Below the pieces are notes generated by a model. That model was not told the DNA's origin. It saw only the letters and a program-made list of their open reading frames with translations, and ran no database searches. A DNA stretch of 20,736 nt from a virus: positions 1 through 20,736 of the IMG/VR virus record IMGVR_UViG_3300031576_000292, one strand, 5' to 3'. The position numbers and the translations under genes are program-made. This document shows positions 473 to 5,595 of the stretch, in pieces. Positions within the stretch are counted from its first letter, which is position 1. The number at the start of each line of letters is the position of its first letter.

Positions 473-1549
473 TCACTTCGGTTGAATCTGCAAGAGCAGA
501 CCGCTGCCGGTGCCTTCGACTTGGGGCCGTTGCCCGTTCCACCGCGCCACGGCGTCTTTCGTAATTTCCAACCGTCGCCACTCGATCAACGACGGCGTGA
601 TGGAGGCGGTCAACAAGCGATTGGCCTCAGCTTCGCCCTTTGCCACGGCAATCTTCGAGCGAGCCGAGCCTTCCGCGGTTGCCACGTTCTTTTCTGCTTC
701 GGCTCGCGCCTGTCGCACTTGGTTTTCCACCTTGATCGCGTCCTGAATCGCCTGTGTTTTGGCATTGATCGCGGTGACAATCACGGCTGGCGGCTCGGGG
801 GCACTGTAGAACCCGAACTGTTCCAGCACAACCCCGTCAGGCTCCACCTGCCTGTTGATGAGTTTCATGGCCTCTACGAGGATCACTTCTTTCTTGTCCG
901 AATACACCTGTTCGGTCGTGTAGAGTGCTGCCACGTCGTTGAGGGCCGTTCGCGCCACGTTGCGTAGATAGCCGTGCGTAAACGAGCGCAGATCGTCCGA
1001 CCTGAATTTCACATAGAAGGCTGGCACCTTGTCGGGCATGATCCGGTAGCTCAGGCTGATGTCGGCCTTGAAGACCGCGCCTTCTTTGGAATTGAAATTC
1101 AACGCTTCCGTTTCTTTCCACACGGTGGTCTGTGTGTTGGTCTGATACTCCAAGATGGAGTACACAGGCCACACCCGCATGACGAAGCCGGTCTTGGCCG
1201 TGTAGTTCTGCACCCCTTTGTCGTCGCCCCAATTATCCACGACGATGCCGACATGTCCGGGTTCAATGACGGAGCACGAACAGCCGGTCAAGACGAGCAG
1301 GGCCAGCATAATCCCCCAGTCTTTCAGACGTTTTTGAACACCCTTGCTTTCCAACATCTTGTCCAGTCCTTTCCAGAATGCGACCACGATGGCCGCTGTG
1401 AGAAAACAAAACACGAAGAGCCCACTGATCACCGCGACGTTGCTCGCCTTCGTGACGGCTTTCCCCGCATGGCCGACCACGTAGAACAGGGCGATGAACG
1501 CTCCGAAGATCAGCGCAATTCCGCTGATCATTTTGATGAATGACATCAT
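473..1549 (-). CDS. SPFH / band 7 (prohibitin-like) membrane protein
   Basis: This 358-residue protein has a recognisable SPFH architecture. Hydrophobic segments lie at about residues 8-27 and 38-58. A third at 79-89 ends in the lipobox-like LTGC (87-90). The SPFH beta/alpha domain covers about 94-255 (VIEPGHVGIVVDNWG through GFYSAPEPP). An Ala/Glu-rich coiled coil follows at about 262-312 (QVRQARAEAEKNVATAEGSA, AKGEAEANRL). SPFH proteins oligomerise on membranes and scaffold proteases and other partners; HflKC, for example, controls FtsH. The start ATG at 1549 follows AAAGGAG and overlaps the stop of the upstream Tat-signal gene as ATGA, so translation is probably coupled. A second ATG at codon 65 (1357) has AAAGGA upstream and would give a classic lipoprotein precursor. 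SPFH genes are uncommon in phages of this type. Family call is firm; function in the phage is inference. Confidence 0.85.
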   Translation of the reverse strand: MMSFIKMISGIALIFGAFIALFYVVGHAGKAVTKASNVAVISGLFVFCFLTAAIVVAFWKGLDKMLESKGVQKRLKDWGIMLALLVLTGCSCSVIEPGHVGIVVDNWGDDKGVQNYTAKTGFVMRVWPVYSILEYQTNTQTTVWKETEALNFNSKEGAVFKADISLSYRIMPDKVPAFYVKFRSDDLRSFTHGYLRNVARTALNDVAALYTTEQVYSDKKEVILVEAMKLINRQVEPDGVVLEQFGFYSAPEPPAVIVTAINAKTQAIQDAIKVENQVRQARAEAEKNVATAEGSARSKIAVAKGEAEANRLLTASITPSLIEWRRLEITKDAVARWNGQRPQVEGTGSGLLLQIQPK

Positions 1550-2160
1550 GTCTGCTCCTTTCGGTTGATGTTGCCAGTGATGAACCGGAGATTGAGTGTG
1601 GACACACTATCGAACGAATGCTCCAGCGTCCACTCGGTGAGCCACACATCCATTTCGTAACGGTGTTTATCAAACGAGGCAGGGAAGCCCCTCAGATTCA
1701 GCACGGCTCGCAGCCGATGCCGATGGAGCGGCACCCCCATGAAGGAGTCGAAGCCTTCTGCCATAGAAAGTCCGGCCCACGACATAAATGGAGCTTCGAT
1801 GTCCAATTCACCGTGCGCGGGGCCGTCCTTGACAAAGATCTTTTGACCGCCGAACGGTGTCATTTCACGCACATCTTGGTTCAACGTCAATTGAAAATTT
1901 GAAATGGGGATCACGTAGTGTTTGCCGGTATCTGTGTCAATGATATAGAACCCCGCGTAATCTTCGGAGCGAGCCGGATCCACCCCGATCACAATCGGTT
2001 TCGGCCGCATGTCCTTGAACTCGGGAAGGACCGGTTCTTTCGTCGGTTCGCCGGAGTTCGTCAGATCGGGGAGTACGAGCTGCGGCGCGACTGCGAGGAA
2101 CGCGCCGAGCTTCGCCGCTTTCGCAAAGAGTCCTAAGAACTCACGCCGACTTGTGCTCAT
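1546..2160 (-). CDS. Predicted Tat-exported protein of unknown function
   Basis: I start this gene at the ATG at 2160, which has AAAGGAG eight bases upstream, giving 204 residues. The open frame extends further upstream, but that part is low-complexity and overlaps the preceding gene. The N-terminus MSTSRREFLGLFAKAAKLG is a textbook twin-arginine signal (SRREFLGL), followed by a hydrophobic stretch (AFLAVAPQLVLP). The mature part is soluble and mixed alpha/beta. It contains IVIGVDPARSEDYAGFYIID, a strand-turn pattern that superficially recalls RNase H-like folds, but no further catalytic pattern is evident. The gene ends in an ATGA overlap with the SPFH gene, which suggests the two products are made together and may act at the same membrane. 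A phage-encoded Tat substrate is unusual. Function unknown. Confidence 0.75.
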   Translation of the reverse strand: MSTSRREFLGLFAKAAKLGAFLAVAPQLVLPDLTNSGEPTKEPVLPEFKDMRPKPIVIGVDPARSEDYAGFYIIDTDTGKHYVIPISNFQLTLNQDVREMTPFGGQKIFVKDGPAHGELDIEAPFMSWAGLSMAEGFDSFMGVPLHRHRLRAVLNLRGFPASFDKHRYEMDVWLTEWTLEHSFDSVSTLNLRFITGNINRKEQT

Positions 2161-4718: not shown

Positions 4719-5168
4719 TCAGCTCCGCGCGAAGAGCCGCTCGCTTCTATTCCACCGCGCACGGCGGTAGTGCGCGATGAACGCGCGGATGCGCGCGAGT
4801 GCCGCTTTCTTGTCGTGCCCGTTATAGGCGTCACCGGAATCGAAGAGGCCGATCCACTCCCCATTGATGAGGATCGCCTTCGGCCGACCGAGGTACACCC
4901 GCAGATCGAACCACGACGCGGTATCGCCGTCTTCGATTTTGATGTGCGCGACGCGCCGAAATTCGCGCATTCCAATACCCCACCCCGCGATGCAACCGAC
5001 CGAGCCGCACTGAATTTCCTTGGCGGTCTCGAGACAGTCGTTCGAGACATCCAAATTGATGAGCGAGGCTGGAATCTTCTGAATGAACCGATGCAGGGCC
5101 TCCAGTCGCCGAATCGCTTCGGCGCGGCTGGCCGGTTTGAGTTGAGGCGCGTCGCTGTCGGTCAACAT
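4719..5168 (-). CDS. CIAGWGIGM-motif phage protein, intact paralogue
   Basis: The 149-residue product has a helical N-terminus (AEAIRRLEALHRFIQKIP), then a Cys-containing core CGSVGCIAGWGIGM at about residues 54-67. A loop with LGRPKAILINGEWIGLF follows, then a closing helix (KKAALARIRAFIAHYRRA). I recognise this as the broad group of uncharacterised phage and plasmid proteins that carry a CGTxxCxAGW-type signature; their function is unknown. The ATG at 5168 has GGAGG nine bases upstream. The gene directly upstream (5200-5595) is a diverged paralogue with the same motif order, so the pair arose by tandem duplication. This copy is intact and keeps both Cys of the CGSVGC motif. Confidence 0.75.
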   Translation of the reverse strand: MLTDSDAPQLKPASRAEAIRRLEALHRFIQKIPASLINLDVSNDCLETAKEIQCGSVGCIAGWGIGMREFRRVAHIKIEDGDTASWFDLRVYLGRPKAILINGEWIGLFDSGDAYNGHDKKAALARIRAFIAHYRRARWNRSERLFARS

Positions 5169-5199: not shown

Positions 5200-5595
5200 T
5201 CAGTTCACCCAGTCGCCGCTGAATTCGCGCGTCTGGGGGTGCCACTTTGCTCGCTTGAGTTTGACGATGAAGGTGTTGAGTCGTATGAGGGCGTCCTTTT
5301 TCTGCCGCTTCCCGTTGAGCCCTGGTGAAAAGATGTCCGTGAATTTCGTGTCGATCCGCACCCGAGGCGGCGAGCCAAGCCACTCGTGGAGGTGATTCCA
5401 CCCCGCGTCATGGTCATGCCCAACATTGTAGATGCGCTTCCAGTCGCGCACGAAGACCGGCATCCCGATGCCCCACCCCGCGATACACGCGATAGCTCCG
5501 CGCTTGACCGCCGCGTCGTGGTGACGGCAGCCCAGAAAGCCGTCCAAGTCCATGAGCTTCTTGGGGACACGATCCCTGATGAAGTTCCGTAACAT
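5200..5595 (-). CDS. CIAGWGIGM-motif paralogue with disrupted 5' end
   Basis: This frame encodes a paralogue of the gene at 4719-5168: RGAIACIAGWGIGM, LGSPPRVRIDTKFTDIF and KKDALIRLNTFIVKLKRA align in order. The first Cys of the neighbour's CGSVGC is Arg here. The first ATG (5595) has no ribosome site and would remove residues conserved in the paralogue. In-frame codons upstream read TPAEDSIRPPDKRTAIRRLV, matching the neighbour's AEAIRRLEAL, but contain no ATG, GTG or TTG. The strong ribosome site AAAGGAGG (5665-5672) and its GTG (5659) are in another frame, which stops after 12 codons at 5621. One extra base near 5653-5656 explains this. The gene may therefore be a decaying copy, a recoded gene or an assembly error. 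Confidence 0.6.
   Translation of the reverse strand: MLRNFIRDRVPKKLMDLDGFLGCRHHDAAVKRGAIACIAGWGIGMPVFVRDWKRIYNVGHDHDAGWNHLHEWLGSPPRVRIDTKFTDIFSPGLNGKRQKKDALIRLNTFIVKLKRAKWHPQTREFSGDWVN

Follow-up and report, generated by a model that had tools for sequence, protein, structure and literature searches.

The window analysed here, a metagenomic virus record of 20,736 bases, carries on its minus strand a gene for an SPFH protein that starts with two hydrophobic segments and reaches a lipoprotein signal only after them. This arrangement raises the question of what the extra N-terminus is and whether the gene makes one product or two. An earlier note, made from the sequence alone, had left two alternatives: that the SPFH domain exists in two forms, one polytopic and one lipid-anchored, arising from two starts, or that a small membrane protein has been fused to a lipoprotein. 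We compared the gene with its relatives, in which the two parts can be followed separately.

Layout of the gene and its SPFH half

The virus record also encodes terminase, portal, protease and HK97-type capsid genes. Translation of the SPFH gene gives an open frame of 358 amino acids without internal stop codons, whose features are collected in Table 1. The two N-terminal hydrophobic segments span residues 10–26 and 40–56, and they are more than a chance occurrence because they match the profile of separate hairpins described below. A third hydrophobic segment, residues 79–95, spans the lipobox. The other readings made from the sequence hold as well: from Met65 the protein reads MLESKGVQKRLKDWGIMLALLVLTG up to C90, which is a normal lipoprotein signal, and the AAAGGA motif sits where claimed, ahead of the Met65 codon.

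Table 1. Position of the features of the fused gene in the window.
Feature	Position	Strand	Basis
Fused gene, hairpin plus SPFH lipoprotein	473..1549	-	Single open frame; Band_7 and phrog_200 matches
Shine-Dalgarno AAAGGAG of the main start	1555..1561	-	Sequence; 5 nt upstream of the ATG at 1549; strong
Residues 1–64, two-helix hairpin, homologue of the separate small gene of related phages	1358..1549	-	Hairpin HMM and AlphaFold2 helices
AAAGGA ahead of Met65; could be an internal ribosome site or a relict of one	1367..1372	-	Sequence; 9-nt spacing
Met65 codon, at the position where the separate lipoprotein gene begins	1355..1357	-	Comparison with L282 and other unfused relatives
Lipobox LTGC (residues 87–90), Cys90, Ser at +2	1280..1291	-	Translation
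SPFH/Band_7 domain, residues 94–287	689..1270	-	Band_7 match; prohibitin fold match
C-terminal helices, residues 255–336; by analogy, cage-wall helix of SPFH proteins	542..787	-	AlphaFold2
Conserved C-terminal W(N/D)G..P motif and tail	476..544	-	W337, G339 and P342 invariant in alignments

A profile search bore out the identification of the SPFH domain, with a match to Pfam Band_7 over residues 94–287 (E 3.9e-23) that, at 82.8 bits against a curated cut-off of 23.6, places the protein in the SPFH/Band 7 superfamily. The SPFH half also matches phrog_200 (E 6.2e-61) and, having a lipobox, belongs to PHROG 200. An AlphaFold2 monomer model of the fused protein, built from a 22-sequence alignment (pLDDT 83), shows helices at residues 2–32, 37–69 and 73–89, followed by the SPFH fold and by long helices at 255–316 and 319–336. 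The top solved-fold match of this model is human prohibitin (E 3.6e-15), followed by stomatin, HflK/C and QmcA, and the top sequence-profile match among solved structures is prohibitin 1 (E 2.7e-10). As judged from these profile and fold comparisons, the SPFH domain of the fused protein is of the prohibitin type.

Prohibitins (PHB1/2) are thus the best match among solved structures both in sequence profile and in fold, although they are mitochondrial, have a single anchor and show neither lipidation nor a fused hairpin. HflK and HflC, which modulate FtsH, likewise share with the window protein the SPFH fold (fold match E about 2e-12) and the order of an N-terminal membrane anchor followed by a periplasmic domain, which in the window protein is a predicted one, but they lack the lipobox and the fused hairpin and have a single membrane helix. 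Identity with HflK was rejected, with a score of 25.8 bits to the NCBIfam hflK model versus an equivalog cut-off of 159.4. We found no relatives of the fused-gene region in a DNA search, no close relatives in an exact peptide-pattern search, no match of the window gene to the PADLOC anti-phage defence models and no conserved neighbours of it among the fetched loci.

A small hairpin gene next to phage SPFH genes

In tblastn comparisons with phages, matches to the full-length window protein often extend over a pair of annotated genes, one for a small 'membrane protein' and one for a 'lipoprotein'. For instance, in Salmonella phage SSU5 a 66-aa small gene (061) and the SPFH gene (062) lie in the same frame, one codon apart; this pair resembles the window in that an SPFH lipoprotein follows a two-helix protein, and differs in consisting of two genes instead of a single fused one. 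The small proteins of SSU5 and of Ruegeria, Pseudomonas, Desulfovibrio and Klebsiella phages match PHROG 1130. Residues 1–64 of the window protein, searched alone, gave no phrog_1130 match at E values up to 1 and retrieved no family by tblastn, and the window N-terminus is therefore linked to PHROG 1130 only through a profile of the separate hairpins.

This profile was trained on 74 separate hairpins, leaving out the fused rows, and it matches residues 4–65 of the window protein with an E value of 8.5e-5 (among 12,379 ORFs). The score, 18.0 bits, was equalled by none of 2000 block-wise shuffles, the best of which reached 13.9. The profile also reaches the N-termini of all six fused proteins (E 5e-9 to 1.6e-3), with an imperfect specificity, since E values below 0.01 are also seen for 5 of the 71 two-helix ORFs in non-adjacent positions. 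The separate hairpins are about 53–115 aa long, contain two helices and show the consensus P.LISA.S...V..G. By its profile match, its two helices and its position before the SPFH domain, the window N-terminus belongs to this hairpin family. The match of residues 4–65 indicates that the partner gene has been fused in frame, and comparison of the sequences strongly supports that residues 1–64 are the fused version of the neighbouring small hairpin gene.

To place the window among its relatives, we surveyed 295 loci, including the window, that group into 98 clusters by SPFH sequence. According to the profile, a separate hairpin lies just upstream of the SPFH gene in 79 of the 98 clusters and is fused to it in six (the window, L089, L090, L294, L021 and L113), a count that is partly circular because the training hairpins were picked by position. 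The non-circular evidence comes from the fused rows and from a profile-free criterion, namely a separate two-helix ORF of 40–130 aa ending at most 150 nt from the expected SPFH start; such an ORF was found in 74/98 clusters versus 9/140 other ORFs (≥200 aa) of the same loci. No hairpin was found in 13 of the 98 clusters, of which six make up a distant outgroup from gut bacteria and one (L085) is truncated at a contig end. The other six are family clusters away from contig ends, with an SPFH gene and no hairpin found nearby, so the hairpin is either not always needed or located elsewhere. In the reverse check, the SSU5 hairpin matched ten phage records; the six close ones are SSU5-type, with an SPFH match adjoining the hairpin, and in TH18, an example of a weak match, an SPFH lipoprotein is also found next to the hairpin.

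Both parts are already known as PHROG families (200, 'lipoprotein', and 1130, 'membrane protein'), and we found no description in the open-access papers searched of their pairing as a conserved cassette, or of a fusion of the pair.

The survey also revealed variants of the arrangement. In the P1-like phage RCS47 (L301), an unannotated hairpin ORF at about 2284–2520 overlaps the start of the SPFH lipoprotein gene by 20 nt. In the Vequintavirinae phages KB57 and 4MG (L302 and L307), an annotated small 'membrane protein' and the SPFH gene downstream of it are separated by an inserted 54-aa ORF. Additionally, in L023, L030, L041 and similar IMG/VR loci a hydrophilic extension precedes the signal at the N-terminus of the SPFH protein, and the hairpin gene is immediately upstream; this large group is placed with crAss phage cr126_1 in the SPFH tree.

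Origin of the fusions and a possible second start

Maximum-likelihood analysis of the 98 SPFH rows places the window with L089, L090, L294 and ten unfused rows in a clade with support 100/99, and L021 and L113 appear elsewhere in the tree. The fused state requires four changes on this tree, and the AU test rejects a single clade for all the fused rows (p-AU 0.0007); together, these results imply that the fusion arose at least twice. At least two origins are thus the most likely reading of the sequence data, with re-splitting as an alternative for part of the pattern. The earlier suggestion of a small membrane protein fused to a lipoprotein is therefore sustained by an unfused pair that is widespread in phages and by fusions in two or more lineages.

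A missed stop codon or an assembly error could also have joined two genes in the window. In favour of this, the window is just one metagenomic virus record, and L282, the relative with the highest identity to it, has two separate genes. We consider such an artefact very improbable, because five other contigs are fused, three of them within the window's own clade, and because the GC content at third codon positions is alike on both sides of the junction (0.77 before and 0.75 after). A different matter is whether one gene yields two products, a polytopic form from the start at 1549 and an ordinary SPFH lipoprotein from Met65. In favour of this, the signal from Met65 is well formed, it is preceded by AAAGGA 9 nt before the ATG, and Met65 is positioned where unfused relatives begin their lipoprotein gene, so that, with two genes in L282, the site may be a working relict. 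However, the other fusions do not share these features: the stretch from hairpin to lipobox is free of in-frame ATGs in L089 and L090, an ATG occurs there in L294 and L021 but no Shine-Dalgarno sequence precedes it, and the sole candidate in L113 is a GTG preceded by AAGGA. Besides, an equally good site precedes 6 of 66 (9%) internal in-frame ATGs in the window genes checked, and AAAGGA before Met65 is weak evidence for an internal start. The production of two forms is hence somewhat doubtful, and the absence of the internal ATG and site from other fusions indicates that it is not a conserved property of them, although two forms are possible in the window alone, perhaps as a relict of the separate gene. 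So, from the two alternatives of the earlier note, the fusion stands, and the putative two forms from two starts are not common to the fusions.

Predicted topology, possible processing and possible role

The mean net charges of 72 separate hairpins are +1.9 for the N-tail, −0.5 for the loop and +2.1 for the C-tail, which by the positive-inside rule predicts an N-in/C-in hairpin with both ends in the cytoplasm. A lipoprotein signal placed after such a hairpin would cross the membrane outward and leave the SPFH domain in the periplasm, where the SPFH domain of HflK/C is also located (PMC12624060). The lipobox Cys is kept in 6/6 fused and 71/79 unfused clusters, and alignment shows that the fused proteins retain it at only 30–44% identity to the window. 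The unfused L003, L012 and L116 have lost the lipobox and have only a membrane helix, so lipidation is not essential to every member.

Because all six fusions have the lipobox Cys, we keep splitting by signal peptidase II as a live, putative option. The gene would then encode a small phage polyprotein, from which the Lgt and signal peptidase II of the host, acting at the internal lipobox, would free a membrane hairpin and a lipid-anchored SPFH protein in a fixed 1:1 ratio for one complex; we put this forward tentatively, as a rather unlikely scheme. In enterobacteria, Ser at position +2 routes a processed lipoprotein to the outer membrane. The Ser at +2 in the window thus sits badly with a single inner-membrane complex, unless processing is incomplete or host sorting differs. 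Alternatively, the fusion might never be cut, with the third segment serving as a plain transmembrane helix and Cys90 as a relict. The three members without lipobox illustrate that a helix can replace lipidation, but the Cys persists in all six fused proteins despite their low identity, including a separately derived pair, and an uncut fusion also seems to us rather on the unlikely side.

We propose that the gene probably represents the fused form of a two-gene cassette widespread in phages, whose products would form a membrane scaffold during infection. The fusion of neighbouring genes is classic evidence for joint action of their products, and both the fusion and the adjacency of the two genes suggest that these products work together. 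In the membrane, the hairpin of the product would run in-out-in and the lipoprotein signal after it in-out. Cys90 may then be lipidated and the hairpin set free by the host enzymes Lgt and signal peptidase II, or else the signal may stay in place as a third helix. Hairpin and SPFH subunits could assemble on the inner membrane into a single ring- or dome-shaped oligomer, by analogy with host SPFH proteins and their membrane partners (HflKC-FtsH and QmcA-YbbJ), and its likely job would be to hold or shield membrane proteins, modulating membrane proteolysis or integrity during infection. Host SPFH proteins assemble into rings or cages and associate with membrane partners; HflKC, for example, encloses FtsH (PMC12005517), and it is by this kind of analogy that the fused protein may act in membrane or protease scaffolding; it might also act directly on FtsH or on superinfecting phages. 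Among the named phages that we examined, the cassettes lie mostly among replication, recombination and nucleotide-metabolism genes, except in Kayvirus, where the cassette is near lysis genes. This context points to a role in the early or middle phase of infection, and not in virion structure or lysis. An SPFH lipoprotein is among the phage proteins detected by mass spectrometry (PMC10892097), possibly as carry-over from the host membrane, and in Pasteurella an HflK/C-like protein encoded on a prophage has an effect on virulence (PMC9872710).

The hairpin could instead be unrelated to SPFH function, as a holin-like or other small membrane gene that adjoins it by chance, and indeed the membrane protein preceding the SPFH gene of Kayvirus has been compared with holins (PMC7150955). 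Nevertheless, this is improbable considering the adjacency of both genes in most clusters across diverse phages, their recurrent in-frame fusion and a context that is mostly early or replicative, not lytic.

The proposed cassette of hairpin and SPFH protein has parallels in known systems. QmcA-YbbJ, which is a solved SPFH-NfeD complex (8z5g in the fold search), and other SPFH-NfeD operon pairs likewise combine an SPFH gene with an adjacent gene for a small membrane protein (PMC2636767). NfeD proteins are described as having 140–150 aa, three hydrophobic stretches and a beta domain (PMC2636767); the phage hairpin shares their operon position, but it is shorter, has two helices and lacks an NfeD match. 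NfeD identity was rejected, since seven hairpins gave no match to NfeD in Pfam and are too short for the beta domain. Staphylococcus Kayvirus MbpV-MbpS also resembles the cassette, with a membrane protein gene directly upstream of the phage SPFH gene, although MbpV differs from the hairpin in being a 102-aa protein with one helix and a long soluble tail, and its match to the profile of separate hairpins is not clear (E 0.014, in a very small search).

A recent paper considers unclear the reason for the presence of SPFH proteins in phages (PMC13239085). SPFH genes occur in hundreds of phage records without a known role, and a hairpin partner that is repeatedly fused to them suggests a concrete two-part complex, testable in SSU5 and other model phages, as well as in P1-like phages with an unannotated partner gene. 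Besides, the pair would serve as a compact model of the association between SPFH scaffolds and membrane partners.

Other genes of the window, all on the minus strand, deserve mention. Directly upstream of the SPFH gene, a 203-aa gene (1546–2157) shows a Tat-like signal (MSTSRREFLGLF plus a hydrophobic core), unusual for a phage protein, and only a weak terminase-like PHROG match (E 0.0014). The genes at 4719–5168 and 5200–5595, for which a PHROG search retrieved no family, share the motif CIAGWGIGM and resemble tandem paralogues. On its downstream side, the SPFH gene is directly followed by one more gene for a small membrane protein (1–270), which extends beyond the end of the contig.
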